From Climacium dendroides (Eukaryota > Streptophyta > Bryopsida > Hypnales > Climaciaceae): a stretch of DNA of 64,000 nucleotides. The translations under genes were made by a program, and so were the position numbers. The stretch's first letter is position 1. Each line of letters begins with the position of its first letter. Under the pieces are notes generated by a model. It saw only the letters and a program-made list of their open reading frames with translations, was not told where the DNA came from and made no database searches. Shown in pieces: positions 33,618 to 64,000 of this stretch. The stretch covers positions 18,333,345-18,397,344 of the forward strand of contig OX467089.1 in NCBI GenBank assembly GCA_950106755.1, read 5' to 3'.

Positions 33618-34047
33618 TGTGGGAATCTGGAATCCGGAAACGGATCAATGATACAAGAATTAGGTGAGAAAAATAGGGAAAATAAAAAATAGTTTAGTTA
33701 GAACGTGATTTTTTGTGTGAGATAACTCAAATTAGGAAATAAGCGTTCCGGCACAATCCGTAACCAGAACTTATCCAGATCCGGAATCCGGATTCACTCG
33801 GAACACAGGAACCTACCGTATAGACCTCGTAGCTACGGGAGTAGGATACCGTTAGTACAACGGACCTGTAGCCGTTGTCCTTAAATCCGTAAAAAGACGG
33901 TTTAGTATTTAAGCTGTTTGCCTAGGGTTTTCCTCTTCACTTTCTTGTTTTGCTTTTCTGAGACTGTCCGTGTGAGTAGTTGAGAGAAAGAGTGGTGAAT
34001 TAGCGACTGAAGTAGGGTTACTTCTCTCTCGTTCTGACTTAGATCTT

Positions 34048-35818
34048 ATGGCATTCGAACCAGTACAGAAGGTAGCGATATCTGCCCGGGTTATCTCTCC
34101 GGCCATTCCGGATAATTCGGAACTATACAAGCAGTTAGAGAAAGATTTGACTAAGTTAGGGTGTGTTGGTCTATTACACCGACCATGGAACCTCAAGAGT
34201 GAAGATATGATTCAAGAGCTACTTCATGGTGTTCCGAATCAGTATGAGCTCACTTTGAGAGGGCGGCCAGTCACGTGGACCGAGGACATCTGGGCAGACG
34301 TCTATTAGTTCCGGAAGAGCGGGAACGGGTTAGCATCAAGGACGGACCGTTTTGTAGCTGGGAAGTTCACAGGGTCTGCAAACCCTAAGGACGAATTCGC
34401 TATTAGCGAATGCAAGGACAAGAGACATAGGCGGATACTAGAATTTCTCATTTCCATCTTGTGTTCGGAAAAACCAACACGGGTTACCATTACGGTGGCC
34501 AATACTATTTTCAGAGCTATGGAGAACCGAGTGGTGCATTGGGGTAGAGTCATAGCCGGGATAGTGGCTAAGTTAGCGGATCATTTAATCCAAACAAAGG
34601 CGAGTCCAGTTAACACCTACTTGTTCCATCTGTACCATCAGCAGGAACTTTGGAGTGTAGCGGAAGTAATCTAGTATGACACCGGAAAGGCGATTCTGTC
34701 ATACAGACTTTCTAGGGAGGAAGCGGAAGATTCGGTCGAGTCGGATCCAGAAGAACCCCCCGAGGAATACTTGACCGATCCGAGGAACAAGAAGAGGAAG
34801 TCAACCGATCCGGGGTCGCGATCCAAGCCACCGGCGATGGAGAGGGGGGAGTCAAGCAAAGGACCGGAAGTAGAAACTGAATCAACATTTTTCAATGCTG
34901 GGTTCGAGTGGATACGCGAGGCCAAGGTACTCCACGACAGCCTGGCGGATTTGGTAATAGATACCGCGGAAGTTTTGAAGGTGGAGTCGGATCAGATTGT
35001 GGAAGTTGTCAAGCGACTGCCCAAACCGGAAGATTTAAAGAGAAGGGAGGAGCGGATCCAGGAGCTGGAGGCGGAACGGAACCAACTCCAAGCTCGAGTG
35101 AATTGGGCGGAAGGGAAAATGGCAGCTTTAAAGGAGAAAGAGAAAGAGGCTCTCTCCCTTGTCAAGAATCTATCCGCAGCAGTCGACATCAAAGCCGACG
35201 TTATCACGAAAGCTGCTTTGTTTGACTCGAAGCTAATATCGGAAGGCCACATCACCGGAACCAAGGTAGTGACCATCTTCGTGGACTTCACTGCGAAGAT
35301 AGAGCGAGTTTTAGGGGAGCTCCGGCAGCTATTGGCGGCCATCGACCCAAATCAGGTGATGGATTTCTCCACCTTTCTAGAACTTCCTTTTGTCTTGGGT
35401 ACTCCAGGGAGACCGATGGCAGATCGTGCAACTCGAATGGAGGGATTGAGGGGGATACTCACGCCAGCCGAGCCTTCCGCCAACAAGATGCGGATGACGG
35501 AGCTGAATTTGAGGCCAGTTTCGGAGCTGGAACCTAAGTCTAGTGTGAAATCAGTTCCGGTACCACCCAAATTCTCAACTCCGGAATTTGATGAGCGCAT
35601 CATTCAAGGTTCCAAGACAGTAAGTCAGAGGAGACCTCATCAACCGGATCGGTGGAATGACCAATTCGGATTGAACTAATCCGAAAGGATTTTCACACAT
35701 GCAAGAGACCACACCAGAAAAGAGAAGCAAACCCGCAACATTGGAGGATATACCGCTAGAGAAGGAGAAGGAAGTTCAAGTCATCGAAGACTCTGAGGAG
35801 GAGAGTACCTACTCCACT
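34048..35818 (+). pseudogene. LTR-encoded ORF of family A, broken copy in the 5' LTR
   Basis: Homologue of the intact 649-codon ORF at 37093-39042. It starts with the same MAxxPVxK and SARVISPAIPD context. In-frame TAG codons replace Gln codons at about 34306 (after DIWADVY) and at about 34673 (after VAEVI). A later stretch near 35590-35680 has lost part of the linker and shifts frame. The CACTA element then splits the gene; the remaining codons resume at 51149 and end at 51299-51301 (GRKPKH, stop). The same TAG codons are present in the 3' LTR copy, so they predate this insertion. Confidence 0.8.
35816..35818. repeat. 3-bp target duplication ACT of the CACTA element
   Basis: ACT at 35816-35818 and 51146-51148 flanks the CACTA termini. 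The uninterrupted LTR A reads CCACTTCCGG at this point, so removing the element and one ACT restores the LTR exactly. Confidence 0.9.
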
Positions 35819-35859
35819 CACTAGAAGAATTCAATGTTTTTTTTAACATTGGAAAAAAC

Positions 35860-36290
35860 GTGCCGTGATGTTTTATTTAACAAGGACGGTACCTGTAGTG
35901 ACGTCTAAAAAAATCCGTTTAAAAAAACAGGCCAAAAACGGGCCATGTTATGTGCTAAAACATGCTTAAATTTTTTGTGACATCGAAAACAACAGGGTTA
36001 CCCAAGAGTTTCTGAGAGTGCCATGTGGAGGGGTTTTGGCATCCACGTAGGATTTTTAACGATGGGCAGGGACACGTGGGACAACTTTTTCATCCAACGA
36101 CGTTCTGACGTGTCCAATGACGTGGACCCCTAAATATCCGACGTGAAAAATAATTTCCGGTGCACACAGCCTACGTGGCAGCTGACGTGGCACTTTTCTG
36201 CGGTACATGCCGATGTTCTGTGTAATGTTCTCTGGGACATCACATTTGACAAGAGGATGTTTTAAATGACATCAGAGTCAAATCAGTCAA
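35860..36290. repeat. CACTA left subterminal repeat region
   Basis: TGACGTC, GACGTGG, TGACGTG and TGACATC-like words recur here (for example near 35899, 36110, 36121, 36190 and 36268), together with ACGTGGCA blocks. In CACTA elements such subterminal repeats bind TnpA. There is no gene in this interval. Confidence 0.55.
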
Positions 36291-37092
36291 TGTGGGAATG
36301 CGATCCCACATGCTAGACCCATAATACTAGTATAGGACAGAAAAATTCAAAACTTGTTTCCTTCAGAGGGAAAGTTTTTGAGTTCCCCTAGGAAGTAAGG
36401 CAAATTAGGAAAACCGGATTTTCGGATCCGGAAAAATTTCATTAGGGCTAAAAACCTAAAATCCGGAACCCTAGAAAGTTCCGGATATCGGATGACGGCG
36501 CCGGCCCTAAACCGGAAACCGGATCCGTACTAGGGATAGGGTTTTGCCGCCAAAACCTATCCCGTACATCGAGTCCATATACGAGGGGGACTGTAGCCGG
36601 CCGCGGGCACACTTATCCTCTTTCTTTTGTTCTCCCGCCGGCGTATTCCGTTTTCCTTGCTTCTGTGGGAATCCGGAATCCGGAAACAGATCAATAATGC
36701 AAAAAGTAGGTGCGAAAAATAGAGAAAAAATAAAAAAATAATAGTTAGAGTGTGATTTTTGGACCAGATAACTTGAATTAGGAAATAAGCGTTCCGGCAC
36801 CACCTGTAACCGGAACTTATCCGGATCCGGAATCCGGACTCATCCGGAACACAAGAACCTACCGTATAGGTCCCGTAGCTACGGAAGTAAGATACCGTTG
36901 AGGCAACGGACCTGTAGCTGTTGTCCTTAAGACCGTAGAGAGACAGTTTGGTACTTAAGCCGTCTTCCTAGGGTTTTCTCTTCCCTTTTCAGTTCTGTGT
37001 ACCCGAGACTGTTTGTGTGAGTAGTTGAGAAAAAGAGTGGTGAGTTAGCGACTGAGGTAGAACTACTTTCTTTTCGTTCTCACTTAGATCTT

Positions 37093-39042
37093 ATGGCATC
37101 CGGACCAGTACGGAAGACAGCGGTATCTGCCCGGGTTATCTCTCCGGCCATTCCGGATAGCCCGGAACTACACAAACAGTTAGAGGAGGACCTGACTAGA
37201 TTAGGATGTGTCGGTTTACTACACCGACCGTGGAATCTCAAGAGTGAGGAAATGATTCAGGAGCTACTTCACGGTGTTCCGAATCAATATGAGCTTACTT
37301 TGAGAGGACGACCAGTCGCGTGGACCGAGGACATCTGGGTGGATGTCTATCAGTTCCGGAAGAGTGGGAACGGTTTAGCATCGAGGACGGACCGTTTTGT
37401 AGCCGGAAAGTTCACCGGGACTGCAAACCCTAAAGACAGCTTTGCTATCAGCGAGTGTAAGGACGAGAGACATAGGCGGATTCTAGAGTTTCTGATTCCG
37501 ATCTTATATCCGGAAAAGCCAACGCGGGTTACCATTACAGTGGCCAACACTATCTTTGGGGCTATGGAGAACCGGATAGTACACTGGGGTAGGATCATAG
37601 CCGGGATAGTGGCTAAGTTAACGGATCACATGACACGAGCTAAGGCAAGTCCGGTTAGTACGTATTTGTTTCATCTGTACCATCAACAGGAGCTTTTGAG
37701 TGCAGCGGAAATAATTCAGTATGACACCGGAAAGACCCTCTTGTCATACGGACTTTTCGGAGAGGAAGCGGAGGATCCGGTCGAGTCTGAACCGGAGGAA
37801 CTTCCCGAGGAGCGTCTGACGGACCCAAGGACCAAGAAGAGGAAGTCAACCAATCCGGGGTCGAGAATCAAGCCTCCGACACTGGAGAGGGGGGAGTCTA
37901 GCAAGGGACCTGAGATGGAAACGGAATCCGCATTTTTCAATGCGGGGCTCAATTGGATATGGGAAGCCAAGGTACTTCATGACGGATTGTCGGATCTGGT
38001 GATAGATACCGCGGAAGTACTGAAGGTGGATCCGGATCAGATCGTGGAAGCTGTCAAGCGACTGCCCAAGCCGGAGGATCTGAAGAAGAGGGATGAGCGA
38101 ATCCAGGAATTGGAGGCGGAACGGAATGTATTCCATGCTCGGGTGAATTGGGCGGAAGGAGAAATGGTAGCTGCGAAGGAGAAAGAGAAGGAGGCCCTTG
38201 CGCTGGTCAAGAATCTAACCGGGGCAGTCAACATCAAAACCGATATCATCACGAAGGCTGCCTTGTTTGACTCCAAGATGATATCCGAAGGCCACATTAC
38301 CGGAACCAAGGTAGTTACCATCCTCGTAGACTTCACCGCGAGAATAGAACGAGTTTTCAAGGAGATCCAGAAGCTGCTGGCGGCCATCGACCCAAACCAT
38401 GCGATGGATTTCTCCACCTTTCCGGAACTTCCTTTTGTCGCAGGTACCCCAGGAAAACTAGTGGCGGATCAGGCAACCCGGATGGAGGGTCTGAGGGGGA
38501 TACTTACACCAGCCGAGCCTTCTGCCAGTAAGATACGGATGACGGAGTTGAATTTGAGGCCAGCCTCGGAACCGGAACCGGAGTCTAGTGCGAAATCGGT
38601 TCCGGTGCCATCTAAGTTCTCAACTCCGGAAGTTCCCAAGGCACAAACAATGCCAAATTTGATGGCCGGAACATTCAAGGTTCCAGGACAGCAGGTTAGG
38701 GGAGATCTCATCAACCGGATTGGTGGGATGACCAATCCGGCTCGGACCAATCCGAAAGGATTTGTGCACATGCAAGAGACCACGCCGGAGAAAGGAAGCA
38801 AACCCGCGACGTTGGAGGATACAACACCAGAGAAGGAGAAGGAAGTCCAAGTTATTGAAGATTCGGATGAGGAGAGTGCCCACTCCACTTCCGGAACCGA
38901 AGACGACAGCGATCCGTCGCCAGCCACGCACCATATCCAAACTCGGGCCACAGCAAAAACTACGCCAGCCAAGAACACGAAGGGGACGCCTACCAGCCAA
39001 GCGGGGAGTCGTTCAAAGAAAGGACGGAAGCCAAGACATTAG
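37093..39042 (+). CDS. LTR-encoded ORF of family A, intact, 649 residues, function unknown
   Basis: This is a single open frame inside a solo LTR. Residues 1-30 form a short basic lead (SARVISPAIPD). Residues 31-220 form a globular block: LGCVGLLHRPWNL, GVPNQYELTLRGRPVAWTED, VAGKF, PEKPTRVTITVANTIFGAM, and then THE-type helices ending in STYLFHLYHQQELLSA. A linker with an NLS-like KKRK (about residue 250) follows, then a coiled-coil region (about 310-380, RDERIQELEAERN) and EGHITGTKVVTILVDF. A Pro/Ser/Thr linker and an acidic patch lead to a basic tail (SRSKKGRKPRH). The N-terminal block recalls the plant-transposon-associated 'putative plant transposon protein' domain (VRGRPV-type motif); this is inference. 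It is not gag: there is no CCHC knuckle, and a separate gag exists. Confidence 0.75.
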   Translation: MASGPVRKTAVSARVISPAIPDSPELHKQLEEDLTRLGCVGLLHRPWNLKSEEMIQELLHGVPNQYELTLRGRPVAWTEDIWVDVYQFRKSGNGLASRTDRFVAGKFTGTANPKDSFAISECKDERHRRILEFLIPILYPEKPTRVTITVANTIFGAMENRIVHWGRIIAGIVAKLTDHMTRAKASPVSTYLFHLYHQQELLSAAEIIQYDTGKTLLSYGLFGEEAEDPVESEPEELPEERLTDPRTKKRKSTNPGSRIKPPTLERGESSKGPEMETESAFFNAGLNWIWEAKVLHDGLSDLVIDTAEVLKVDPDQIVEAVKRLPKPEDLKKRDERIQELEAERNVFHARVNWAEGEMVAAKEKEKEALALVKNLTGAVNIKTDIITKAALFDSKMISEGHITGTKVVTILVDFTARIERVFKEIQKLLAAIDPNHAMDFSTFPELPFVAGTPGKLVADQATRMEGLRGILTPAEPSASKIRMTELNLRPASEPEPESSAKSVPVPSKFSTPEVPKAQTMPNLMAGTFKVPGQQVRGDLINRIGGMTNPARTNPKGFVHMQETTPEKGSKPATLEDTTPEKEKEVQVIEDSDEESAHSTSGTEDDSDPSPATHHIQTRATAKTTPAKNTKGTPTSQAGSRSKKGRKPRH

Positions 39043-40224
39043 GATTGGTAGGAGAAGAGGTATAGGATCCGAAATGGGGTTCCGAGCTTGGACCTGGTTT
39101 CCGGAAATTTAGGCGGATAGTGAGGAATCCGGTTATCTCGGACGGCTGTTAGCAATCTGTCCGGATATCTCGGGAGATTCAGGGATTGGTGGCCTGGATT
39201 TCCGGGTTTCCTTTCCAAGCTTTTAGGAGTTGACTTTGGGTTTTTGTATTAGTATTTTAAGGGAGGCAAGTTAGTTGTCTGCCATTCCATCCTACTCCAC
39301 TGGATTGTAGTGCTTTCACGTATGTATTACAATTTTCTTTTCTTAAATCTAAATCAGCCAAGTTACCTTTAGCTGCACTTTTTCGCTTAGACAGGATCAT
39401 TCTGAGCTGGGTGTATGCATGGGTGTCTGATCTGGTACTGGAGAAAGAGAGGGGAGGGAGAGAAGGAATCCGGATCTTGAGCTACGGATCGTCTGGGAGT
39501 GAAGTGAGTGAGAAGGGATGCAAAGCTGAGTAAGGGAGTACAAGTGCAACGTGCTTTTAAACTGCTGGAACCGCAATCCGGAGCAAAGGGTAGAGGTCCG
39601 TGCGAGTCCGGAACCAGGAGGGTTCTGTGCGGAGTTAAGCAACCGCTAGAGGAAAGGATCTCCCGCTACTTCGGAAAGTCTGCCAACCTTCCCCTTGGTA
39701 AATTGTCTTCTCCTTGAGATTCTATCATTTTGGGTCTATAAGCTCTGATCCGTCGTTGTAGTAAGAGAGGTGTGGAAAGTGCTCTGTGTGACCTGATTCT
39801 GGATTGGCCAATCCAGAAACTGTGAGAGAATACTCCTCCTTCCTCCTACAACTGCGTTGTCTTAGGTGTGTTGTTTAGTAGATTTAGAGTACAGGGAGAA
39901 TAATTGTACAAGTGGTGAGTCCCCACCCCTTTCTAGATCAAGGGTGGACCCTTTGAGGGTAAAACAGAGGCAACAAAAACCAGTGACGGAAGAGAGACGG
40001 AAATCAGATCCGGGTGTGTCCGGATCCGGAACGGAATCCGGAATGTACTAAGTTTCCGGAACGAGATAGGATAAGTGAAATAAGGGGGATTAAGTAAGTA
40101 GTCACAACCCGGATACTTCTCATTCAATCGATATCATACTAGAAGTTCCCTGGACCGATAATTCGTGTCATCTTGCAACAATCTGCTGTTGTCAGGATAC
40201 TTACGGCTAACTGCGCGTACGACA
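39043..40224 (+). other. 3' part of LTR A after the ORF, noncoding
   Basis: Presumed 3' UTR, R and U5 of the LTR. It contains conserved blocks shared with 51302-52471 and 63360-64000: CAAGTTAGTTGT, TCACGTATGTATTACAATTT, a CAACCGC-AGAGGAAAGGA block, GTGAGTCCCCACCCCTTTCTAG and AATTCGTGTCATCTT. No frame is conserved across copies. Confidence 0.6.
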
Positions 40225-40346
40225 GCTTCGTTAGAATTCCGGTAGACTGAGGGACTATGTGAGTTGCGATCGTGCAGGGGTTACCGGAGTGACAGTTGTG
40301 AGCAGAGATTTAGGGAGAGATTGTGTGAGGATTGATCGTGAGCACA

Positions 40347-42448
40347 ATGGCTTCTAGGGCAAGCCGGCGGAAGTTGAAGGACTTGCCTGAGGATTCAGAG
40401 GACGAGGCGCCGGCACCTGTACCTCGACCAAGGACCATCCCGGTGATGAAGGTGGTTCCGGAGGTTCCGACGGAGGAGGACCGGCTGGCGCGCCTACGGG
40501 AGCATCTCCGCAACATGGGGTGTGACGGACTCCTAGAAGTGCCGTGGGGAATCCGAAGGAGAGCCTGGTTTCGGACATACTTCGTCCGAAAATTGGTATC
40601 TTGGATACCACCATTCGGGCGAAGCCAGACCTGTGGACGGTAAACACTTGGCGGGCCGTCTACAAGTTCCGGGAGGCGCTGGACAAGGTCATGGAGAAGA
40701 ACCAGGAGGTGATGGAGGGAGAGTTCCGGGCGCCCGCCAATCCGAAGGAAGGTAACCAGGTTTCCGACCTAGTGAATCCGGAGTACCGGGATGTGGTAGC
40801 GTTTCTCAACCCTATCCTCCATCCCACCAAGCCGCGGCGAGTAGTAGCGAAGGTAGCCTCCACCATCTTGTGGAGCCTCCAGGGAAAGATGATGATGGAC
40901 TGGGCAGCCATCATCCACGAGCTAGTCGGAGACTTAGTGCGTGCCCTCCGGTCCGGAAAGAAGAGCTAGAGTCCTCTTCCGGCATATTTGTCTCATTTGT
41001 ACGCCCACCATTCTCTGCTCAAGGCGAATGAAGAGAGTGCGTATCAGGACCTAGTCCAACTTCAGCAGTAAGGAGGAGAGGAGCCCTCGCCTCGAGACAG
41101 ACCAGACGATGAGGACACTAAGGAAGAGGAGCTGGTCTCTCCGCTAAAGAAGAGGAAACGACGGAATAGGACGCCGCCGGTAAGTCCGTCAGAGGAGCCT
41201 CCTACATCGGAACCACAGGAAGAGGTTCAGGAGGTAAAGACGAAAACCGGACTTGTTCCGAAGGGAGTCCAACCATCCTTGCAACTGGTTGGGCCGATAT
41301 GACCGCACACCGTCGCCACTGAGGCTGAGGCCGGACCCTCCCGGACCCGGATGATAGAGGTGGAGGAGAGGGATCGGACAACCATGTGATTGGGAGGGTC
41401 ACCCCTAGAAGACATCCAAGAGATGGCTCAGCATCTGGTGTGGCGGGTAGACGATCTCTTCCAGATCTACGAGAACTATGATGGAGCCCTCAAACGAGTG
41501 TACCGGAAGATGGCGCTAACCGACCGGAATGCCATTTTCCGGAGGACGGATGCATTGGTGGTAGCGGAGCAGCAAAACAACCTCCTCATAGCAGAACAGA
41601 AGAATTTGGTAACAGAGCTAGGGGCGTTGCGCGTAGAAAACCGAACGTTGCGAGACCAAGTCCGGAACTCGGAATCCCATTGTGTGGATTTAGAGAGCAC
41701 CATCCGCACTGTTAAGGAGACAGCTCGGCTTACAGAAGAAGCTCATCGCCGGCAGATAGCGGCCTTATGCGAAAGTGTAGTTCAGCTCCGGAGCTCTCTA
41801 GAGGTCCCGATAGACTATATCAACAAGGCCTGGCTGTTTGAAACTAACCTCGATGCAGCCGCCAACTCAAGCCGGGTTCCTATCGTCAAATGCTTACTAG
41901 AGCAAGCAAGACGAATGGATACATCCCGGGCCGCGATGAGGGAGATGATGGAGTACATTATGTCTACAGAATCGGATCCGGCACCTCAATCTCCCTCGTC
42001 AGCGCAGACTTTGGTGGTTCTGGAAAGCAGTGATCCGGAACCTATGGTTACGGAGGTCTCACCGGTGGTCCCGGTAAATCCGGAACTTTCACCACCAGCC
42101 GGAAGACCAGAAGGAGTGGACTAGAGAGCAGTGGTACCTCCGGGAAGTGAAGACCTGCTGCCGGTAACTCCGACCATTGACCTGATGAGTGCTTCTCCGG
42201 AAGTTCACGCCGGACGGACGGTACAGTCTTCTCCGCGTCATAAGAAGACTTAGAAGGATGCGAGAGGGAGTCCGGACACTCAGGTAGTCGGGACTAGGAG
42301 TGTAGACAGGGATACCAGTATTATGGAAATTCCAAGATGGGGCCAAAGGGGTCCGAATCTATTTTCTCCGGAGGGTAGCCGGAAAGAAGTAAAGCTGGAT
42401 CTTCTGAAGGACTATGTTCCTCCTAAAGATCCAGATTCAAAAGAATAG
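40347..42448 (+). pseudogene. LTR-encoded ORF of family B, decayed
   Basis: Starts MASRASRRKLKDLPEDSEDE and continues as MGCDGLLEVPWG, matching the GCxGL-xPW motif of families A and C. A frameshift near 40550 leads into VNTWRAVYKFREA, APANPKEG, HPTKPRRVVAKVASTI and a TAG after RSGKKS (about 40967). SHLYAHHSLLKANEES then continues in frame. Stops follow near 41069 and 41300. The segment 41390-42121 is an open coiled-coil and acidic region, and the frame continues through two more stops to a final TAG at 42446-42448. The domain layout (globular block, basic PLKKRKRR, coiled coil, acidic tail) is the same as in families A and C. Confidence 0.7.
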
Positions 42449-43545
42449 TATACAATAGTGTAGTTTAGTGGCAATACTGGAGTCCGGCCGTCAAAGCCGG
42501 AAAAATAGGATCTGGAATCTTCCGAAAATTTAGTGGACCAGTAGGAATGCTTTGTAGGATTTTTAGGATGATGTTAGTCTTAGTATAAGTAGGACTTTTA
42601 ATGACCTTTCTGGTCATTCACAACCATCTCATAGTTTCAACATTGTACCTTTTTCGGAGTTTAATTCTAAAGTGTGTTGGAGTATCCAATCTCTTATCTT
42701 TCTTATGTACGGTATATGTTTGTGAGAGGTGTGAGTTCGTTCTTGCGTTTCCGGTATTGAGAACTTACCTTGTGTGGCAAGAGTCGATGTTGTGAGAGTA
42801 TCCGAATGTATTAACTTGAGGGGGAGATCAACCGAATGGTTCCGGCAGTAAGATTAGGGTAGTACTGCTCAGATGCCGGTATAGCCTACGTGTAGGATAT
42901 AGCCCTAGGTGAAAAGGGGTATCTGAGAGGCTGCTAGCAAACTTCCGTGTACGGAGGTATTGCTGGACGTGCCCAAATTCCGGATTGCCGGAATTCCTCG
43001 TAGAACAGAGTTAAGCCCCGGCACAAGCCCAAGAAAGTACAGGAGAAACCAGTCGGTCAACAGGAGGCTCAGTGTTCGGTTAAAGGTTAGAATGTCGTTG
43101 TAGTTCTTGACCGTCTCTGTGTGACCTAATCCGGAAGAGCTTCCGGATTTGTGAGGCGACGGAACAAGAGGACACTTCCGGTCCATGAAGAGTTAGGTTG
43201 CTATTAGTATTAGAGAGAGAGAGAGTGAAAGAGAGCGTGTTTCCGGACACGATAAGCATCCGGACGGTGGATCTGGCCACTCATCATCCAAACCCAGGGA
43301 TCCCGGAAGGGACATTGAAACGGTTTCCGGATCCTTCCGGAACCCACCCGGCACTAGTGTCCGGACCAGACCAAAAGTCCGGAATAATCCGACGGAGAGA
43401 AAAGTGAGTGCTTAGACCGGGATAGCCTATGAAACTGTAATCCACAAGTCCTCGTGGGAATGATTCCGGAGCGGTTTACTCTAAGAAGGCCTTTGGTATG
43501 AATTAAGGGCTAATTGGAGGAATACTGGTCCGACTAATCGCTACA
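42449..43545 (+). other. 3' part of LTR B, noncoding
   Basis: CCGGA-dense sequence with no conserved frame, ending in the LTR terminus CTACA and the GTCAA duplication. It contains a (GA)n-like tract at about 43212-43235. Confidence 0.5.
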
Positions 43546-43550
43546 GTCAA

Positions 43551-50879: not shown

Positions 50880-51145
50880 GTAGTGAAAGATGCACCAGTG
50901 GCTGACGTGGCCGATTCGCGTTTTTTTTGACGTCATGTGAAATGTCCTTTGTTTTTTTTGACATAGTGAAAAACACGTCTGTTCAAAGTGACATCCCTAC
51001 ATTTCCTGACGTCTAATATGACGTTTCAGATGACATCACAAAAAATTGTCCCTGATCTACGCGTTTGTCCAAAAACGTAGTGACGTCAAAAATAACGGGT
51101 GATGTCACAGCGTAACGCAATCAAAAACATGGTTTTCTTATAGTG
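50880..51145. repeat. CACTA right subterminal repeat region
   Basis: GCTGACGTGG, TTTGACGTCATG, GTGACATCC, CTGACGTC, TGACGTTT, ATGACATCAC, GTGACGTCAA and GATGTCACAG lie within 250 bp in both orientations, before the terminal TTCTTATAGTG. They mirror the left end and are the likely TnpA-binding array. Confidence 0.6.
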
Positions 51146-51148
51146 ACT

Positions 51149-52471
51149 TCCGGAACTGAAGACGACAGTGATCGGTCTCCCGCAACGTGCCATATCCAGA
51201 CTCGAGCAACAGCGAAGACGACGCTATCTAAAAGTATAAAAGGGACGCCTACTAGTCAAGTAGGGAGCTGCTCAAGGAAAGGACGGAAGCCAAAGCATTA
51301 GAATTCGTAGGAAAAGAAGTATAGGATCCGGATCAGGTTTCCGAGCATGGGCCCGGTTTCCGGAATCTTAGGCGGATAGTACGGAGATCCGGCAATCTCG
51401 GACGGTAGTTATTAGCCTTTCCGGATATTTCGGAGGTTCAATGATTGGTTGCCTGGATTTCCGGGTTTCCTTTTCAGGCTTGTAGGAGTTGACTTTGGCT
51501 TTTGTGTTAGTATTTTAAAGGCAGGCAAGTTAGTTGTTTGCCATTCTATTCCATTCCATCTTAGTGCTTTCACGTATGTATTACAATTTTCTTTTCTTAA
51601 TCTAAGTCAGCTAGGGTGCCTCTAGCTGCACTTCGCTTAGACAGAATCTTTGGCTAAGTGTATGCGTGTGTGTTGTATCCTTATATTGGAGAAAGAGAAG
51701 AGAGGAAGAGGAGGAATCCGGATCTTGAGCTATAGATCTCTTGGAGGTTGAGCTGGTCAAAAGGGATGCAAGTTGAGTAAGGGAGTGTGAGCGTCACGTG
51801 CCTTTAAATTGCCGGAATGGCAATCCGGATAAGAAGGTAGAGGTCCCTGCGAGTCCAGAACCAAGAGGGTTCTATGTGGAGATAAGCAACCGCCAGAGGA
51901 AAGGAACTCCCGCTACTCCGGAAGGTCTACCAACCTCCCCCTTGGTACATTGTCTTCTCCTTGAAACTTTACTCCCTTAGGTTTATGAGTTCGGATCCGT
52001 TGTTGTAGTACGAGAGGTGTGAGAATTTCTTTGTGTGACCTGCTTCCGGATCGGCCAATCCGGAAACTGTGAGAGAATACTCCTCCCTCCTCCTACAACT
52101 GTGTTGTCTTGGGTATGTTGTTAGTTAGGATTTGGGTGTAGAGAGGTTAGTCACACAAGTGGTGAGTCCCCACCCCTTTCTAGATCAAGGGCGGACCCTC
52201 TGAGGATAAACCCGAGGCGACAAAAACCAGTAACGGAAGAAAGACGGAACTCAATTCCGGTTGTGTCCGGATCCGGAACGGAATCCGGAATGTACTAAGT
52301 TTCCGAAGTGAGGTAGGGGAAGTGAAAGAAGGAGGATTAAGTGGGTAGTCACAATCCGGATGCTTTTAATTCAATCGATATCATACTAGAAGTTCCCTGG
52401 AACGATAATTCGTGTCATCTTACAACAATTTGTCGTTGTAAAGATATTTACGGCTAATTGCGCGTACAACA
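51149..52471 (+). repeat. 5' LTR, second part (after the CACTA insertion)
   Basis: This resumes the LTR A sequence at TTCCGGAACTGAAGAC. It finishes the broken LTR ORF at 51299-51301 and runs through R/U5 to the LTR end GCGTACAACA. It is near-identical to 63195-64000 of the 3' LTR where both are visible. Confidence 0.9.
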
Positions 52472-52475
52472 CTTT

Positions 52476-52493
52476 TGGCGCCACTGTTGGGGA
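52476..52493 (+). promoter_or_regulatory. Primer binding site, tRNA-Asp-like
   Basis: TGGCGCCACTGTTGGGGA lies 4 bp after the LTR end. It matches TGGCGCC and GGGGA, the two ends of the PBS complementary to plant tRNA-Asp (GTC) used by Athila/Tat elements, with four central mismatches. Position and match mark the start site of minus-strand DNA synthesis. Confidence 0.8.
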
Positions 52494-52627: not shown

Positions 52628-54132
52628 ATGAGTAGGCCTCAAAGAAGAAATACAACTTTACGTCGGGCGGAATGTCAAGAGGAAATAAATAGGCGAATAG
52701 TGGTGCACGGGTTACCAGCATCACAGTCTACAGAGGATTTGGTTATAATTCCTATTAGGCCGGAAGTACTACCGGAACGTTCCCAAAGCCCTGAAGCGGT
52801 TGAAGAGCTAGAAACAGAATCTGTTACCTTTGAAGAGGGGCGGTTCTTTGACGAATCGGATACTATGGTGACCACCATGCGTCTCCATTACAGTAGATTC
52901 CGAGGAGACGGGAGTAAAAATGTAGATGATTGGATGGTAGAATTTGAAGCTACTACAGTAGCTAATTAAGAAGATGACGCTTCTAGACAAAGAATTTTTC
53001 AGGGACTACTAAAAGGTGAAGCCTTTAGATGGTATCAGGATGTTTCGGAAGGTATCCGGAACAACTGGGACCATCTGACGGAACTCTTCCTACGGACCTT
53101 TAGAGAAGTAGGAGGAGAAGCTAGAGCGTTGAGGAGACTTAGTAAAGTGTCCATGAGACCCAATGAGTCGGTTCGAAAATATGGTCAAAAGGTGAAAGAC
53201 CTGATCAAGAAACTAACAACGGACGTGGCCCCGAGTATACAAGTGGAATGTGGCAAGTTTTCTGGAGGAAATGGGTTTTCCGATCCGGCAATCCCGACCC
53301 GCAATGCTAAGAGAAGCCATGGAGTCAGCCCAAAATTATGAGAATTCAGCTCAATCGCTACGACGGTCTATTAAGAAGAGCGAGAAAAGAGAAAAAAGGA
53401 AGAGCAAAAAGTACGAGAAGAAGATGAAGCGAAGAGGGAGGTATTCGGATTCCGAAACCTCGAGTTCCAGAACCGGATCGAATGAGTCATCCCACCAGCG
53501 CCGTCAACTCGGATAGTGAGGCAGAGACTTCTAGCAGCAGATGAGTTGCGCGAGGCAAAAATGAGAAGGTTAGCAAAAGAACCGTCAAAGTGAAGGTGGA
53601 AGAGGACGATTCCAAGAAACTGATGAAGAGCATCCAAGAATCGTTAGAAGCAATCAAGGTCAACCTAGCTGACAACCGGATGCCTCGACGAACTGTACCG
53701 ACCTCCCGAGCTAATGTATGGTGCGCAAGGTGTGGAAGACTCGGTCATTATGCAAGCAAATGCCCCCAAGGGCATCAGAAGCAGATCCATTTTGTGGACG
53801 AAGAGGGAGTATACTACACACTTCCGAAACCGGAAGGATGTGAAGATCCGATGAATCCAGTATTCCAGATCCAAACCGCATACGGAAGAGGGAAAGCACC
53901 TCAGTAGCTGGTCCGCACCAATTTACATACGCATCCAACAACTGGATCTAGTCAAGGTACTTATTCCACTTCTAGAGTCCCACCCGAATGTTGTTTCGTG
54001 TGTGGAAGTCCCCAACATTATGCCAATAGCTGTCCCCATAAAGGGCAGGGACAAGGGGCACCACTAGCTTTATCATGCCAGAATTGTTTAGAATATGGCC
54101 ATGGAATGAATGAGTGTTCCAGACCGCAATAA
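52628..54132 (+). pseudogene. gag: gag with three CCHC zinc knuckles, disabled
   Basis: Starts at the ATG 135 bp after the PBS (MSRPQRRNTTLRRAE). The capsid-like part reads TTMRLHYSRFRGDGSKNVDDW, then after a TAA at 52967 GLLKGEAFRWYQD, WDHLTELFLRTFRE and ESVRKYGQKVKDLI, typical of retrotransposon gag. Frameshifts occur near 53249 and 53510. A basic, Lys-rich linker leads to knuckle 1, CARCGRLGHYASKC (about 53730). After a TAG at 53905 in the same frame come knuckle 2, CFVCGSPQHYANSC (about 54000), and knuckle 3, CQNCLEYGHGMNEC (about 54080). A TAA at 54130 ends this stretch, but the frame continues into pol. All four in-frame stops of the gag-protease linker (53905, 54130, 54226, 54274) fit single C-to-T changes of CAG, CAA or CGA. 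Confidence 0.85.
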
Positions 54133-56185: not shown

Positions 56186-56188
56186 AGA

Positions 56189-57640
56189 ACTCAGATTCCG
56201 TGACTAGTTACTTTACGTCTGTTACGGAACCAAATTTTGAGTTTCCGGAATCCATCCTGGAAATTGCGACGGAAGAAACAGAGACTCAGACACCAGCGAT
56301 ACCGGAAGATCAATCATTAGGAGAGATGAGTGTTCCGTTATCGTACGAATGGATCAAACGACAGCTCAATGAAGAGAATCTTCCGACGGTAGGACTGGGT
56401 CGAACAAATCAAGGATCCGTCTGGAGCGAGTTGCGGAACGAGGAAGATGGACCAGAGCCAAAAAAGAGGAAGCCGATAGTAAGCCCAGTGGAGTATGAGG
56501 AGGTGAGTGTTACTCCGGGAAAAAATTTCTTTGTCAACAAAGCAATGTCTGCTCCGGAGAAAACTGAATACAGGAAACTTCTAGAAGATTATCTCGATGT
56601 CTTTGCTAGGTCACCCTCCGACCTCAGTGGGATACCAGCAGAACTTATTGGGAGAACACCGGATCGACCTTGTCGAAGGAGTAGTTACGGTCCGCCAGCG
56701 ACAACATCGGTTAAACCCGAGATACTCTCTGATGGTGAAGGAGGAAATTGACGCTTTGTTAGAAGCCGGGTTTATTTACCCAGTCCTCAACTCAGAATGG
56801 GTTTCACCCATTGTTATTGTTCCAAAGAAACCAAGTCCAGGAGGAAAAAATCAAGATCCGGGTATGCCAAGATTTCCAGAAACTAAATGATGCAACCCGG
56901 AAGGACTACTTTTCGCTTCCTTTTACAAACATCATTCTTGATCAAGTTTTCAGAAATGAGTGTTACAGCTTCCTGGATGGATTTTCCGGATACAACCAAG
57001 TTTTCATCTGATTATTAGACTAGCTGAAGACAACCTTCACAACGGAATGGGGAACCTTTGCATTCACTCGGATGCCTTTCGGATTATGCAATGCCTCCGG
57101 AACTTTCCAACGACTCATGATGGACATCTTCCAGGATTTTTTACGTCAATTCCTAGAGGTATTCATCGATGACTTTGTTGTATACAGTTCCAAAGACGCA
57201 CACCTAGAATACCTGCAAAAAACCTTTCAGAGATGTAGAGAGACGAATCTCAAGCTGCACCTTGGAAAGTGTTTTTTCGGAATGGAATCCGGAATCCTCT
57301 TAGGACATGTGGTTAGTCGGAAAGGGTTAGAGGTAGACATAGACAAGGTCAAAGCCATACTCACCCTTTCCGCTCCAACCTGTGTACAAGAGATCCAAAG
57401 ATTCCTTGGATGTGTAGGGTATTATCGGAGATTCATAGACGGATATGCCTGGAAAGCTACTCCACTTACGGAGCTGCTAAAGAGGGATACTGAGTATTTG
57501 TGGAGTATGGAACGACAAGAAGCTTTTGAGACCTTGAAGTCAACACTAGTCAAGGCCCCTATTTTGTCTTCACCAGATTGGACCAAGGAATTTCATGTTA
57601 CCCTAGATGCTTCTGGATGGTGTTTAGGAGCAATCCTCTA
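56189..57640 (+). pseudogene. pol: pol: reverse transcriptase and start of RNase H, disabled
   Basis: A linker with acidic and NLS-like PEPKKRKP sequence leads to PEKTEYRKLLEDYLDVFA. After a shift near 56650 the RT begins: HRIDLVEGVVTVRQRQHRLN, EEIDALLEAGFIYPV, WVSPIVIVPKK. One extra A in the A-run near 56847 shifts frame, then VCQDFQKLNDATRKDYFSLP and YSFLDGFSGYNQV follow. TGA and TAG stops lie at about 57009 and 57021, followed by KTTFTTEWGTFAF, MPFGLCNASGTFQRLM and the catalytic FIDDFVVYS (about 57161-57187). The thumb/connection reads FLGCVGYYRRFIDGYA and TPLTELLKRD. RNase H starts at FHVTLDASGWCLGAIL and is stopped by adjacent TAG TAA (Gln-Gln in the family) at 57640. Catalytic residues are otherwise kept. 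Confidence 0.88.
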
Positions 57641-58679
57641 GTAATATGATAGTCACCAGAGAGAATGCCCCATTTATTACTCCAGCAAACAAATGAGTTT
57701 GGCGGAAAGGAAGTACACCACCACGAAGCGAGAGGCATTGGCAGTGGTCTATGCATGCAAGAAGTTCCGACATTACCTGCTTGGGTATCGAGTGGTATTC
57801 CATACGGATCATGATTCGCTCAAGTATTTGGTAAACAAACCTGACTTTTCCGGAAGAATAGCAAGATGGGTGTTATTACTCCAAGAATTCAATTATGAGG
57901 TAAAAGTGAAATCTGGGAAGTCAAATGCAAATGCAGACTACCTCTCTAGATTTCGGGGACCGAATTCGCTCAAGGACATTTCCACAGAATTCTCGAATGA
58001 CTTTCCGGAAATTCTGGAAGAATCTGTGTTCCAACTAGAGGAAGGAACCCAATCAGATTACCAAGACATCATCGATTTTCTTGTAGACGGAAGATACCCG
58101 GAGGGATTAAACAAGGAGGAGAAAATCATGTTCTACCATAAGGTTGGCCTTTACTCACTGATTAAGGGAACCTTATTCAAAATGGGAGCGGATGATCAAC
58201 TAAGGCGATGCGTGGAAACTAAAGACCAGAAGAAGATAATGCGAGCCTTGCATTCTGGACTTTCCGGGGGACATTTCGTAGCTATCACCACAGTGAACCG
58301 GATTCGAGCAGCCGGATATTGGTGGCCATACCTGATCCAGGACATCAAGAGGCATGTGGGGAGTTGTGACCAATGTCAACGGACAGGGGCTCCTTCCTTC
58401 CGAAACCATCGGCCACTCGTTCTAATCATGCCTATTGCCCCGTTTGAGAAATGGGGAATAGATTTCATAGGTCCCATTTCTCCAGTTACGGCTAGAAGAA
58501 AGAAGTATATCATCTTGGCGACGGATTATGCCACCAAATGGATAGAAGCACAGGCCACCCGGAATAATTCCGCCCAGACGGCCGCATCATTCCTATTCAC
58601 GGAAATTCTGATGAGGTTTGGACACCTACTAGAGTTAGTCAGTGATCGAGGACTCCATTTCCTGAATGATACCATTTAG
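57641..58679 (+). pseudogene. pol: pol: RNase H and integrase N-terminal and core, disabled
   Basis: The same frame continues after the double stop: YDSHQRECPIYYSSKQM, TTTKREALAVVYACKKFRHY (catalytic Glu), FHTDHDSLKYLV (Asp), NANADYLSRF (end of RNase H). The integrase follows: an HHCC zinc-binding domain with HSGLSGGHF and CDQCQ, then the core with WGIDFIGPI (first Asp) and LVSDRGLHFLND (second Asp). A TAG at 58677 interrupts before the Glu. No second (archeo) RNase H is seen between RNase H and integrase, where Tat elements often have one; the linker is only about 250 bp. Confidence 0.88.
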
Positions 58680-59308
58680 AATATTACCAAGAGGTATCTG
58701 ATCACCTACCGGAAGACCACTCCTTACAACCCAAGGGCAAACGGTTTGACGGAACGAGCCAATGGAATAGTGGAAAAGGTTTTGAATAAAACCATCTCAT
58801 AAAAGACTACCACTGGGAGAAGTCCATTCTTTTTGTGTTTGGACAGGAGACCACCCATGGGATCGAATTAGAAGTGGAATCACACCGAGTAATGACAACC
58901 GGGAATGCTATCCGGACTAGCGATCCGAACATCCGGTTGATGGCTATTGAAGATTTGGAGGAAGCAAGATTGGTGGCCCTAGATCACACGAAGAGGGTAC
59001 TGGAAAGGAAAAAGGCAGATCATGACAAGAAATTACCAACCAATCACGGTATCAAGGAAGGGGAGTTAGTTCTATTATATGACAGCCGTTACCAGATTTT
59101 TCCAGGAAAACTCCACACCAGATGGATGGGCCTATATAGAGTGCGACCGTTGTTTTCTAATGGATCCATTCAACTGGAAGACCTTCAAGGGGTTTGGATG
59201 GACACAAGGGTGAATAAATCCCGAGTCAAGACTGTGAGTGAATTTCACCGTGAGGCAAAATGCATCCATAAGGTTGGGCCGGGAGGAGTGTATGGGACCT
59301 CTAACTAA
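58680..59308 (+). pseudogene. pol: pol: integrase core end and C-terminal domain, disabled
   Basis: The frame continues with ITKRYLITYRKTTPYNPRAN and GLTERANGIVEK, which carries the catalytic Glu. A TAA at about 58800 and shifts follow, then GRSPF. The open frame 58835-59308 contains FGQETTHGIELEVESHRV, LERKKADHDKKL, VLLYDSRYQIFPGKLHTRWM and GLYRVRPLFSNGSIQLED, the GPY/F-like integrase C-terminus. No chromodomain follows, arguing against the chromovirus branch. Confidence 0.82.
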
Positions 59309-60990
59309 CGCCTCCAAGCAATGGACTCTATCAAGTTTGTTATCCAATTTTCATGTGTGAGGTTAGGTGGGAAAAGGGTAGCTTGACCCACTCCCTCAAA
59401 GGTCCAATGACACTCTCTAAATATTCTAAAACATCACCTAAGAAGTTGTAGCATCCTTTTAGGTCAAAATGGCACTTAAAAACCTCTACTTAGGGCTCAA
59501 AATGGGTAAAATTGGCATCTCAATTTTATTCCAGCACATCTTCTTCTACCCAATTGCCTTAAAACCTCCTTAGATTCTTTCCCTCACCAACCTTGTGAAT
59601 TAGGGTATGTTCCTAGGTGAAAGTTGAGCTCGAAAGTGCAATTGAGAGCTCCGAGGGCTAGGTTTGAGCCCTAATTGAGAAATTTCAGCACACATTAATC
59701 CCATCCAAAACCTTCAACCCCACTCTCTTTCCACCTTCTCTTCTTTTACATGTCTCTTAAATCTTAAGTGAGTGCTTCTACATTCACCCCAATTTGTTCA
59801 TAAAGCTCACCACCCACATAATCCAAAAACAACCAACAATTCCATAAAAATTGCAATTAAAATTGCACTTCAACCAAGTACAAACATTGAGTGAATATCA
59901 CCTCAGTCCCATAGCAGACCAACGGCCACTAAAACGGCCATTGCCATCTCTATACTTGTCCAATTGGCTTGAGAATAGTCTCCCTGGAAAGCTACCTTGA
60001 CCTTTCACTTCCCCTCCAAAATTCAGCTTCATACTTGCTGTAGAACTCCCGCTAGATGCCTGCAAAGTTGGTGCTCTCTTTTCGCCGCGGCAGCAGACCT
60101 CCTCACACTAAATCAGTTGCTGTGATCTCGTCCAAGCTCCGTTGGGGACGAGCCATAGCTTGTTGGAAAGCTAACTTCCACGCGCTTCATCTCTCCAAAT
60201 TTCAGCCTCGAATTCGTTGTAAAACTCTCGCTTGATGCCCGCAAAGTTGGCGCTCTTCCCTAGCCGCGGCAGCATACTTCCTCTCCCCCATTTCTTCTCA
60301 ATCTTCACTTTCCACCCCCAAGGTGGAAACCTACTCGACAAATTGGCTCTAATCCTATCCTAACTCCTTGCCATCACTTCCTAACATCCTTCTTTTCAAA
60401 ATTTCACACACACACAAGAGAGCCAAAAAAAAACAAGCACACAAGAGAAAAGAGAGAGATAGAAAAAAAAAACTCCTAACCCTAATTCGACCTTTACCTA
60501 CTTTCCAACTAATTCACACTCCTAATTACCTTCATCCATCCTTAATTTACTGAGAAATACCTTTTAATTATTAATTTTACCTAAAATAATACTCCTATCA
60601 CTATGTTAGTGCCTTCCTAATAGTTATATGTTTGATGGCTTCTTTTGTGCATTTCATCTTTCTTCTTTTTTGTTGGTTTCCAATTTATATTTAGCTCTAT
60701 TTTCAACTTCTAATCTTGGTTTTCAATTCCCTTTTTGTATTTCTTATCCTTTAAATATTTTTAGTTTGTAATTTTGAAATAGATTCCTATCTAATGTATT
60801 AAAAGCCTTCTAACTAATGGTTATAGTTTAATCTAATGAACTAACACTTTTGAACTTGAAATCTCACACATAATTTTTATATTTTCCATCATCTTAGAGG
60901 TGAACCATTACAGTGGTTCACAAAGACGTACGAGCAGGAGTCGGATTCCCAAGACGAAGCCGAGGATAATTGCTGGGACTCTCACAGTTG
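59309..60990 (+). other. Retrotransposon 3' untranslated region, noncoding
   Basis: About 1.7 kb between integrase and PPT with no envelope-like frame. It contains a tandem repeat of about 189 bp (59987-60175 and 60176-60290) sharing GGAAAGCTA, CTTGATGCC/CTAGATGCC, GCAAAGTTGG and CCGCGGCAGCA words, then an AT-rich tail. A long noncoding 3' region is usual in Tat-like elements. Confidence 0.6.
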
Positions 60991-60999
60991 AAAAAGGGG
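60987..60999 (+). promoter_or_regulatory. Polypurine tract
   Basis: GTTGAAAAAGGGG lies three bases before the 3' LTR start (TAA, then TGTGGG at 61003). It is the expected plus-strand primer for second-strand DNA synthesis. Confidence 0.85.
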
Positions 61000-61002
61000 T
61001 AA

Positions 61003-64000
61003 TGTGGGAATCCGGAATCCGGAAACGGATCAATGATACAAGAATTAGGTGAGAAAAATAGGGAAAATAAAAAATAGTTTAGTTAGAACGTGATTTTTTG
61101 TGTGAGATAACTCAAATTAGGAAATAAGCGTTCCGGCACAATCCGTAACCAGAACTTATCCAGATCCGGAATCCGGATTCACTCGGAACACAGGAACCTA
61201 CCGTATAGACCTCGTAGCTACGGGAGTAGGATACCGTTAGTACAACGGACCTGTAGCCGTTGTCCTTAAATCCGTAAAAAGACGGTTTAGTATTTAAGCT
61301 GTTTGCCTAGGGTTTTCCTCTTCACTTTCTTGTTTTGCTTTTCTGAGACTGTCCGTGTGAGTAGTTGAGAGAAAGAGTGGTGAATTAGCGACTGAAGTAG
61401 GGTTACTTCTCTCTCGTTCTGACTTAGATCTTATGGCATTCGAACCAGTACAGAAGGTAGCGATATCTGCCCGGGTTATCTCTCCGGCCATTCCGGATAA
61501 TTCGGAACTATACAAGCAGTTAGAGAAAGATTTGACTAAGTTAGGGTGTGTTGGTCTATTACACCGACCATGGAACCTCAAGAGTGAAGATATGATTCAA
61601 GAGCTACTTCATGGTGTTCCGAATCAGTATGAGCTCACTTTGAGAGGGCGGCCAGTCACGTGGACCGAGGACATCTGGGCAGACGTCTATTAGTTCCGGA
61701 AGAGCGGGAACGGGTTAGCATCAAGGACGGACCGTTTTGTAGCTGGGAAGTTCACAGGGTCTGCAAACCCTAAGGACGAATTCGCTATTAGCGAATGCAA
61801 GGACAAGAGACATAGGCGGATACTAGAATTTCTCATTTCCATCTTGTGTTCGGAAAAACCAACACGGGTTACCATTACGGTGGCCAATACTATTTTCGGA
61901 GCTATGGAGAACCGAGTGGTGCATTGGGGTAGAGTCATAGCCGGGATAGTGGCTAAGTTAGCGGATCATTTAATCCAAACAAAGGCGAGTCCAGTTAACA
62001 CCTACTTGTTCCATCTGTACCATCAGCAGGAACTTTGGAGTGTAGCGGAAGTAATCTAGTATGACACCGGAAAGGCGATTCTGTCATACAGACTTTCTAG
62101 GGAGGAAGTGGAAGATCCGGTCGAGTCGGATCCGGAAGAACCCCCCGAGGAATACTTGACCGATCCGAGGAACAAGAAGAGGAAGTCAACCGATCCGGGG
62201 TCGCGATCCAAGCCACCGGCAATGGAGAGGGGGGAGTCAAGCAAAGGACCGGAAGTGGAAACTGAATCAATATTTTTCAATGCTGGGTTCGAGTGGATAC
62301 GCGAGGCCAAGGTACTCCACGACAGCCTGGCGGATTTGGTAATAGATACCGCGGAAGTTTTGAAGGTGGAGTCGGATCAGATTGTGGAAGTTGTCAAGCG
62401 ACTGCCCAAACCGGAAGATTTAAAGAGAAGGGAGGAGCGGATCCAGGAGCTGGAGGCGGAACGGAACCAACTCCAGGCCCGAGTGAATTGGGCGGAAGGG
62501 AAAATGGCAGCTTCAAAGGAGAAAGAGAAAGAGGCTCTCTCCCTTGTCAAGAATCTATCCGCAGCAGTCGACATCAAAGCCGACGTCATCACGAAAGCTG
62601 CTTTGTTTGACTCGAAGCTAATATCGGAAGGCCACATCACCGGAACCAAGGTAGTGACCATCTTCGTGGACTTCACTGCGAAGATAGAGCGAGTTTTAGG
62701 GGAGCTCCGACAGCTATTGGCGGCCATCGACCCAAATCAGGTGATGGATTTCTCCACCTTTCTAGAACTTCCTTTTGTCTTGGGTACTCCAGGGAGACCG
62801 GTGGCAGATCGTGCAACTCGAATGGAGGGATTGAGGGGGATACTCACGCCAGCCAAGCCTTCCGCCAACAAGATGCGGATGACGGAGCTGAATTTGAGGC
62901 CAGCTTCGGAGCTGGAACCTAAGTCTAGCGTGAAATCAGTTCCGGTACCACCCAAATTCTCAACTCCGGAATTTGATCAGCGCATCATTCAAGGTTCCAG
63001 GACAGTAAGTCAGAAGAGACCTCATCAACCGGATCGGTGGAATGACCAATCCGGATTGAACTAATCCGAAAGGATTTTCACACATGCAAGAGACCACACC
63101 AGAAAAGAGAAGCAAACCCGCAACATTGGAGGATACACCGCTAGAGAAGGAGAAGGAAGTTCAAGTCATCGAAGACTTTGAGGAGGAGAGTGCCCACTCC
63201 ACCTCCGAAACTGAAGACGACAGCAATCGGTCTCCCGCAACGCGCCATATCCAGACTCGAGCAACAACGAAGACGACGCTATCTAAAAGTATGAAAGGGA
63301 CGCCTACCAGTCAAGTAGGGAGCTGCTCAAGGAAAGGACGGAAGCCAAAGCATTAGAATTCGTAGGAAAAGAAGTATAGGATCCGGATCAGGTTTCCGAG
63401 CATGGGCCCGGTTTCCGGAATCTTAGGCGGATAGTACGGAGATCCGGCAATCTCGGACGGTAGTTATTAGCCTTTCCGGATATTTCGGAGGTTCAATGAT
63501 TGGTTGCCTGGATTTCCGGGTTTCCTTTTCAAGCTTGTAGGAGTTGACTTTGGCTTTTGTGTTAGTATTTTAAAGGCAGGCAAGTTAGTTGTTTGCCATT
63601 CTATTCCATTCCATCTTAGTGCTTTCACGTATGTATTACAATTTTCTTTTCTTAATCTAAATCAGCTAGGGTGCCTCTAGCTGCACTTCGCTTAGACAGA
63701 ATCTTTGGCTAAGTGTATGCGTGTGTGTTGTATCCTTATATTGGAGAAAGAGAAGAGAGGAAGAGGAGGAATCCGGATCTTGAGCTATAGATCTCTTGGA
63801 GGTTGAGCTGGTCAAAAGGGATGCAAGTTGAGTAAGGGAGTGTGAGCGTCACATGCCTTTAAATTGTCGGAACGGCAATCCGGATAAGAAGGTAGAGGTC
63901 CCTGCGAGTCCAGAACCAAGAGGGTTCTATGTGGAGATAAGCAACCGCCAGAGGAAAGGAACTCCCGCTACTCCGGAAGGTCTACCAACTTCCCCCTTGG
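61003..64000 (+). repeat. 3' LTR, truncated by the window end
   Basis: About 3.0 kb of the roughly 3.52-kb LTR is in view. It is near-identical to 33618-35818 plus 51149-51980 and has no CACTA insertion, which proves the CACTA came after, or independently of, the retrotransposition. It carries the second broken LTR ORF. About 525 bp should follow beyond the window. Confidence 0.92.
61433..63356 (+). pseudogene. LTR-encoded ORF of family A, broken copy in the 3' LTR
   Basis: Same start and the same two TAG-for-Gln changes (about 61691 and 62058) as the 5' copy. The middle part, open from 62108 to 63064, holds the NLS-like KKRK, the coiled coil (RIQELEAERNQLQARVNWAE) and EGHITGTKVVTIFVDF. A deletion and shift near 62970-63060 separates it from the last open piece (63084-63356), which ends in the basic GRKPKH tail. 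The N-terminal, middle and C-terminal pieces are each readable, but no complete protein can be made without read-through of TAG and a frame change. Confidence 0.8.

Follow-up and report, generated by a model that had tools for sequence, protein, structure and literature searches.

A protein gene inside the long terminal repeats of related retrotransposon families in Climacium dendroides

Elements and reading frames in the window

A stretch of 64,000 nucleotides of Climacium dendroides (hereafter the window; contig OX467089.1 of assembly GCA_950106755.1, positions 18,333,345 to 18,397,344) exhibits long terminal repeats (LTRs) of at least three related retrotransposon families, and a protein gene is located wholly inside these LTRs. 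The families are represented by a full retrotransposon, element A, and by the solo LTRs A', B and C (Table 1), of which LTR A' is about 82% identical to LTR A. An exact 5-bp target site duplication (TSD) bounds each of the solo LTRs, and the distance from the LTR start to the start of the open reading frame (ORF) is 429 bases in A', 490 in B and 603 in C. An extra ORF inside LTRs had been proposed by a first-pass annotation of the same DNA. Its presence there is confirmed by the anatomy of the window, by the genome copies and by a codon bias confined to the ORF (see below).

The first-pass annotation was right about family C, whose minus-strand frame is open and located in a solo LTR, and about the two copies in element A, which are broken by in-frame stops common to both. 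The frame that it assigned to LTR A is indeed open and inside an LTR, but this LTR is the separate solo LTR A'. The frame that it assigned to LTR B lies in the LTR and is homologous in its N-terminal part, but is not open, since stops and a change of frame interrupt it. The idea that the ORF is carried twice per element and kept in solo LTRs is borne out by the two LTRs of element A and by the solo LTRs A', B and C.

Element A is a full element with a primer binding site (PBS) and a polypurine tract (PPT) at the inner LTR edges, gag, pol and both LTRs. The paired LTRs, PBS, PPT, gag and the order reverse transcriptase (RT), RNase H (RH) and integrase (IN) of its Pfam matches place it in Ty3/Gypsy. 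The PBS is presumably tRNA-Asp-like. The gag and pol frames are broken into pieces; these are separate from the LTR ORF, which encodes, as proposed, a protein distinct from both. No Pfam match was found for the pol-adjoining pieces 56763-57008 and 58790-59305, and none for a protease in the scanned pieces. The two LTRs differ by 39 substitutions over 2998 aligned sites. A 15.3-kb insertion (35819-51145) splits the 5' LTR. With its ends CACTAGAAGAA and TTCTTATAGTG and a 3-bp duplication (ACT), it appears to be a CACTA-like DNA transposon. The result is a four-deep nest, with A' in B, B in the CACTA-like insertion, and the insertion in the 5' LTR of element A. A repeated copy of about 90 bases (79%) lies between pol and PPT (60014-60283).

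Table 1. Coordinates of the LTRs, reading frames and other features in the window
Feature	Position	Strand	Basis
Element A, Ty3/Gypsy LTR retrotransposon	33618 to beyond 64000	+	Self-comparison of window, boundary reading
Element A 5' LTR, first part (start TGTGGGAATC)	33618..35818	+	98.9% identity to 61003-63202
Broken ORF copy in element A 5' LTR	34048..35818	+	In-frame stops common to 3' LTR copy
Element A 5' LTR, second part (end GTACAACA)	51146..52471	+	51146-51945 98.3% identical to 63201-64000; end beside PBS
Element A PBS	52476..52493	+	Sequence immediately past LTR end
Element A gag pieces, Retrotrans_gag and CCHC zinc knuckle	52970..53907	+	PF03732 (E-value = 5e-10), PF00098 (E-value = 2e-4)
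Element A pol pieces, RT, RNase H, integrase	57024..58679	+	PF00078, PF17917, PF17921, PF00665
Element A PPT, immediately 5' of 3' LTR	60991..60999	+	Sequence
Element A 3' LTR, past window end	61003..64000	+	Self-comparison, boundary sequence
Broken ORF copy in element A 3' LTR	61433..63353	+	In-frame stops common to 5' LTR copy
Solo LTR B, 3689 bp own sequence, TSD GTCAA, A' inside	36291..43545	+	Boundary reading
Broken ORF copy in LTR B, N-terminal part matching family	40347..42448	+	Split by frame change and stops
Solo LTR A', 3561 bp, TSD GCTTC, within solo LTR B	36664..40224	+	Boundary sequence, genome copies
Example CCGGA array, 14 motifs in 429 bases, LTR A' non-coding	36664..37092	.	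Motif count
Intact LTR ORF of A', 649 aa	37093..39042	+	Open frame
Solo LTR C, 3428 bp, TSD CTTTC	351..3778	-	Boundary reading, genome copies
Intact LTR ORF of family C, 535 aa	1568..3175	-	Open frame
C', end fragment of LTR C relative	32787..33583	-	Pieces 77.5-81.5% identical

Copies in the genome and codon constraint

Both intact proteins, of 649 and 535 aa, served as queries against the window's own assembly (412.6 Mb in 123 contigs). The first look returned 6072 and 6114 candidates, respectively, which are not copy counts. For the 649-aa protein 68 matches were scored, all of them spanning residues 2-649 or more at 94-100% identity, and for the 535-aa protein 81 (92-100% identity). Copies free of stops numbered 24 and 20, respectively, the other 44 and 61 containing stops; since the scored copies are the best-scoring ones, they overstate the share of intact copies.

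The 30 best loci were fetched for each of the families A' and C (60 loci), each set including the window's own copy. These loci were retrieved via the ORF itself, and LTRs of the clade lacking the ORF would escape this sample. LTR sequence is present on both sides of the ORF in all 60 loci (A' 30/30, C 30/30). The match extends from end to end of the LTR in 55 of them (A' 27/30, C 28/30), the A' exceptions being two loci that begin at base 12 and one without an internal part. Exact 5-bp TSDs identify 39 loci as solo LTRs (A' 18/30, C 21/30). Most of the copies found via the ORF exhibit a conserved protein additional to gag-pol. Two possibilities raised by the first-pass annotation against its own proposal, that the ORF lies outside the LTR in other copies or is a host gene present only in the window's copies, accordingly fail for both families.

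A PPT was found upstream of four A' loci and a PBS downstream of two (one a variant, judged by eye). Two A' loci located 24.6 kb apart (L017 and L024) exhibit a common duplication, TAAAT, across the PBS and PPT sides, as expected for the LTR pair of one element. Another two, L019 and L020, are the two LTRs of one element: they lie 9.47 kb apart, their flanking bases on the PBS and PPT sides agree at 4 of 5 positions, and they exhibit 7 differences over 3566 positions, with stops at the same two residues. In family C, L032 (with a PBS judged by eye) and L038 are both flanked by ACGAG, no PPT being recognised before L038, and the identical flanks of L051 and L052 look like one event.

The ORFs of A and A' differ at 84, 52 and 197 sites in codon positions 1, 2 and 3. 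Variants within each family were counted over 30 copies (the window copy and 29 loci, the duplicates L001 and L031 being omitted), and those present in at least two copies were taken as mostly inherited through replication. These shared variants are distributed 62/47/178 over the codon positions in A' (p = 5e-24 for a uniform distribution) and 73/39/138 in C (p = 7e-14). When the phase is extended into the non-coding LTR, the counts are flat on the 5' side (A' 31/25/23, C 33/32/31) as well as on the 3' side (A' 68/70/72, C 73/83/88), with p values from 0.49 to 0.97. The bias in the ORF stays after removal of CG and CHG sites (A' 24/8/89, C 19/8/58), and private variants are less biased but not flat (A' 98/64/128, C 95/56/116). 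The copies are not independent and recurrent changes are present, so that the p values are indicative and the contrast with the adjoining LTR DNA carries the argument. Since the third-position bias is confined to the ORF and none is seen in the adjoining LTR DNA, the pattern indicates that the ORF was maintained as a protein, A' and C showing the codon bias expected of purifying selection.

These counts bear on the suggestion that the ORF is a passenger, i.e. a host or transposon gene captured in the LTR and of no use to the element. The stops in 44 of 68 and 61 of 81 scored copies, and the movement of elements with broken ORFs (see below), would suit a passenger. Codon-position bias, both among the inherited variants of two families and in the differences between A and A', speaks against one, and so do the relatives that align with most of the protein, of which at least one comes from another genome. 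The variant counts largely refute this explanation, and we regard it as highly improbable.

C-to-T changes at CG and CHG sites occur in the A' and C copies at 2.1-2.7 times the CHH rate. An excess of this kind is the footprint expected of plant-type DNA methylation, and the decay is as expected if the copies are methylated. In-frame stops of the A' and C copies are mostly TAG, and the methylation-type footprint could serve for dating copies. The presence of the same stops in both LTRs of element A, and again in L019 and L020, indicates that these elements probably moved with a broken ORF, barring gene conversion. Either provision of the factor in trans or dispensability of the ORF is consistent with such movement.

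Some other features of the window may be recorded here. LTR C exhibits TATA-like sites at LTR positions 284, 2397 and 3132. The frame 3774-4805 beside it is protein-kinase-like (Pkinase, E-value = 2e-6, 28.1 bits against a cut-off of 31.7), so that LTR C may have inserted into a kinase gene or beside one. The old end fragment C' lies directly 5' of element A. Direct repeats of about 370 bases, 83% alike, are located at 22064-22835, and copies of about 100-200 bases in direct and inverted orientation, 87-95% alike, are clustered at 27990-28334.

The LTR protein and its relatives

The layout proposed for the LTR protein in the first-pass annotation (globular block, basic patch, coiled coil, tail) agrees with the structure model. 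The 649-aa protein exhibits an N-terminal domain (residues about 10-222, confidently modelled), a basic patch, long helices (278-430, the model being confident to about residue 380) and a disordered tail. Residues 278-430 presumably form a coiled coil. A structure search with the modelled protein found no matching fold in the PDB. Relatives that align with most of the protein were identified, many of them at 30-50% identity. One of them (P0009) reaches at most 40% identity among 81 scored matches in the window's genome, so that at least one relative is from another genome. A basic patch follows the N-terminal domain in 36 of 39 members, as scored by a regular expression with no background control. 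The product is likely a nuclear, dimerising, DNA-binding protein, in which the basic patch would serve nuclear entry and the coiled coil dimerisation.

Membership in the Transposase_32 family (PF20167), which the first-pass annotation named as one to check, was not borne out, the curated cut-off being reached neither among the Pfam matches listed nor in a search of the window's genome with PF20167 (0/1). PF20167 is absent among the matches of the window's protein at E-values up to 5, and among the 25 families listed out of 46 matched by the 39 members, the other 21 being single-member matches weaker than an E-value of about 0.09. Compared by profile with the PF20167-type sequences of this genome, the LTR protein gives a collinear, marginal match (138-157 columns, E-value = 7e-4 to 1e-3, match probability 21-27%; reversed control, E-value = 0.37). 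The LTR protein would at best be a distant relative of Transposase_32. Unlike the LTR ORF, these PF20167-type sequences are dispersed, of low copy number and without LTR-like pairing by eye; the family of one of them (L061) gives 54 dispersed matches, again unpaired by eye. The sub-threshold PF20167 matches of this genome (L061-L065) are possibly host genes or belong to another element.

Retroviral accessory genes reach into the U3 part of the LTR in mouse mammary tumour virus (MMTV; sag) and in lentiviruses (nef). These are parallels in that a protein is coded in LTR sequence; here, in contrast, the whole gene stays in solo LTRs. In plant LTR elements, additional ORFs (aORFs; Athila env-like/ORF1, Grande gene23, Retand and the Tekay 5'aORF) are described in the internal region in the available text of PMC7264820. 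They resemble the LTR ORF as conserved extra proteins besides gag-pol in Ty3/Gypsy elements. They differ, as far as that text goes, in being internal, whereas the present ORF does not occupy the typical place between LTR and gag-pol, but lies in the LTR itself, so that an element has two copies and solo LTRs still have one. No plant element with an ORF inside its LTR was found in the literature surveyed, mostly without full texts. The 3' aORF of sunflower Athila contains Transposase_32 according to the accessible part of PMC11728184, and together with the marginal PF20167-type match this suggests that an aORF located 3' of pol entered the LTR through a shift of the PPT. The boundary would have moved upstream, and reverse transcription would then have copied the ORF into both LTRs.

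The same relationship is the starting point of another explanation, in which the protein acts as an accessory factor, in replication or structurally (for particle assembly, nuclear import of the pre-integration complex, or packaging), comparable to the Athila 3' accessory ORF and merely located in the LTR, and the CCGGA motifs described below are unrelated to it. A marginal relation between the N-terminal domain and Transposase_32-type sequences, and the presence of Transposase_32 in the sunflower aORF (PMC11728184, as available), speak for such a factor, and long helices with a basic patch suit a structural role too. Its weak points are the marginality of that relation, the conservation of motifs between A' and A and their family specificity, for which it leaves no explanation, and the probable movement of elements with broken ORFs, though helper particles could account for the latter. 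We hold this explanation to be possible and rather unlikely.

CCGGA arrays and a possible role of the LTR protein

The LTRs are packed with the motif CCGGA in a family-specific form, a new observation here. Counted on either strand, the motif reaches 22.3 per kb (A'), 23.9 per kb (B) and 12.1 per kb (C) in non-coding LTR DNA, compared with 0.5 and 0.2 per kb in two stretches outside these elements. The enrichment over dinucleotide shuffles corresponds to z = 5 to 13 in the LTR parts of A', B and C, the leader tested for B having taken in some DNA 5' of the LTR. Among the non-coding NCCGGN sites, TCCGGA and ACCGGA account for 15 and 2 of 21 in A', and for 2 and 17 of 24 in C (Fisher p = 5e-6); the two forms are mixed in the ORFs (TCCGGA:ACCGGA 8:10 in A' and 6:11 in C). 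Between A' and A, identity in the non-coding LTR is 94.2% for motif bases (n = 120) and 82.6% for the others (n = 1475), and 25 of 36 motifs are intact, compared with 84 of 165 other CpG-holding 5-mers. A value as high as that observed arose in only 1 of 4999 circular shifts, and control 5-mers with three or four G/C are conserved at 0.818 and 0.817.

We tentatively favour, at somewhat below an even chance, a reading in which the LTR protein is a trans-acting DNA-binding factor for its own LTRs that keeps them expressible, most likely by anti-silencing. The protein would bind in trans to the CCGGA-type motifs dense in its own LTRs, and this binding would counter methylation or activate transcription. 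Each LTR with an intact ORF, solo or not, would be a gene copy as well as a target, and elements with a broken ORF of their own could draw on the factor. The motif arrays lend indirect support to a role in silencing.

Several observations weigh against this reading. The Pfam scan of the window's LTR-ORF proteins found no family over cut-off and no known DNA-binding domain, and the C protein is without the basic C-terminal tail present in A'. The motif occurs in the ORFs at 17-18 per kb, a density equal to that of the non-coding LTR, and at 5.0 per kb, below the LTR density, in the internal region of element A, a distribution not expected of a target confined to non-coding DNA. DNA flanking the fetched copies exhibits 5.4-5.7 per kb, unevenly (21 of 58 flanks with 0 or 1), perhaps because many copies sit in other elements. 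Between A' and A, 5-mers consisting only of G/C are as well conserved as the motifs (19/20 bases), CpG bases alone differ little (38/42 in motifs, 74/87 outside), and motif bases of the ORF are in no excess (83.1% against 82.7% for the others). Motifs are not conserved between C and C', an old fragment about 70% identical to C outside motifs over the longer aligned stretch: 1 of 8 is intact, and 27 of 40 motif bases are identical, against 525 of 753 others. LTR B has a mixture of TCCGGA and ACCGGA (13:7). Finally, the movement of elements with broken ORFs could equally mean that the ORF is dispensable.

Several of these points are shared by the suggestion that the arrays are not binding sites at all, but a product of composition or repeat formation in CpG-rich LTRs. 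CpG islands in the LTRs of Del elements offer a comparison for such LTRs (PMC4029996, in the part available). Density in coding parts, the lack of conservation between C and C' and the equally conserved G/C-only 5-mers would all follow from composition. The excess over shuffles keeping dinucleotide content, the higher conservation of A'/A motifs than of 5-mers with three or four G/C, and the opposite variants in the non-coding DNA of two families would not. A compositional origin is a real possibility, though we rather doubt it.

If the motifs are bound, the protein may be a transcription activator of its own LTR promoter, with the CCGGA arrays as its sites of action and silencing not directly affected. 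This narrower proposal overlaps the anti-silencing one, draws on the same motif evidence and cannot be separated from it by sequence. The C-to-T decay at CG and CHG sites, however, suggests a methylation pressure on the elements, and pure activation seems to us quite unlikely.

Anti-silencing has a precedent in VANDALs, which are Mutator-like DNA transposons, not LTR elements. Their protein VANC removes methylation and binds a short motif that is dense in the element, the motif differing between related VANDAL families (PMC5735166 and PMC10398659, in the text available). The likenesses are the extra transposon protein, a short motif dense in non-coding DNA, and a motif variant that differs between related families, here between A' and C, LTR B being mixed. 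The VANC motifs, according to the same partial texts, are mainly non-coding and of single orientation, with binding shown, whereas the LTR motifs are candidate sites that also fill the ORF and occur in both orientations. Nor are the latter mainly non-coding and rare elsewhere, given the densities of ORFs and flanks reported above. The fullest form of the anti-silencing reading would have each LTR combine the gene of a sequence-specific DNA-binding protein with its target array, the TCCGGA (A') and ACCGGA (C) code diverging together with the protein, and solo LTRs forming a genome-wide reservoir of trans-acting helper genes. Taken with all its parts, this scheme is unlikely, if conceivable.

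The usual view of LTRs is that they are regulatory DNA, and that solo LTRs are dead remnants. The solo LTRs described here keep a whole gene that was maintained by selection during replication, so that the recombination removing the body of an element leaves gene copies behind. The annotation and dating of such LTRs change accordingly, as part of the LTR evolves under protein constraint. With a protein, a candidate binding motif and families exhibiting different variants, these elements provide a directly testable case for the possible escape of such retrotransposons from methylation.

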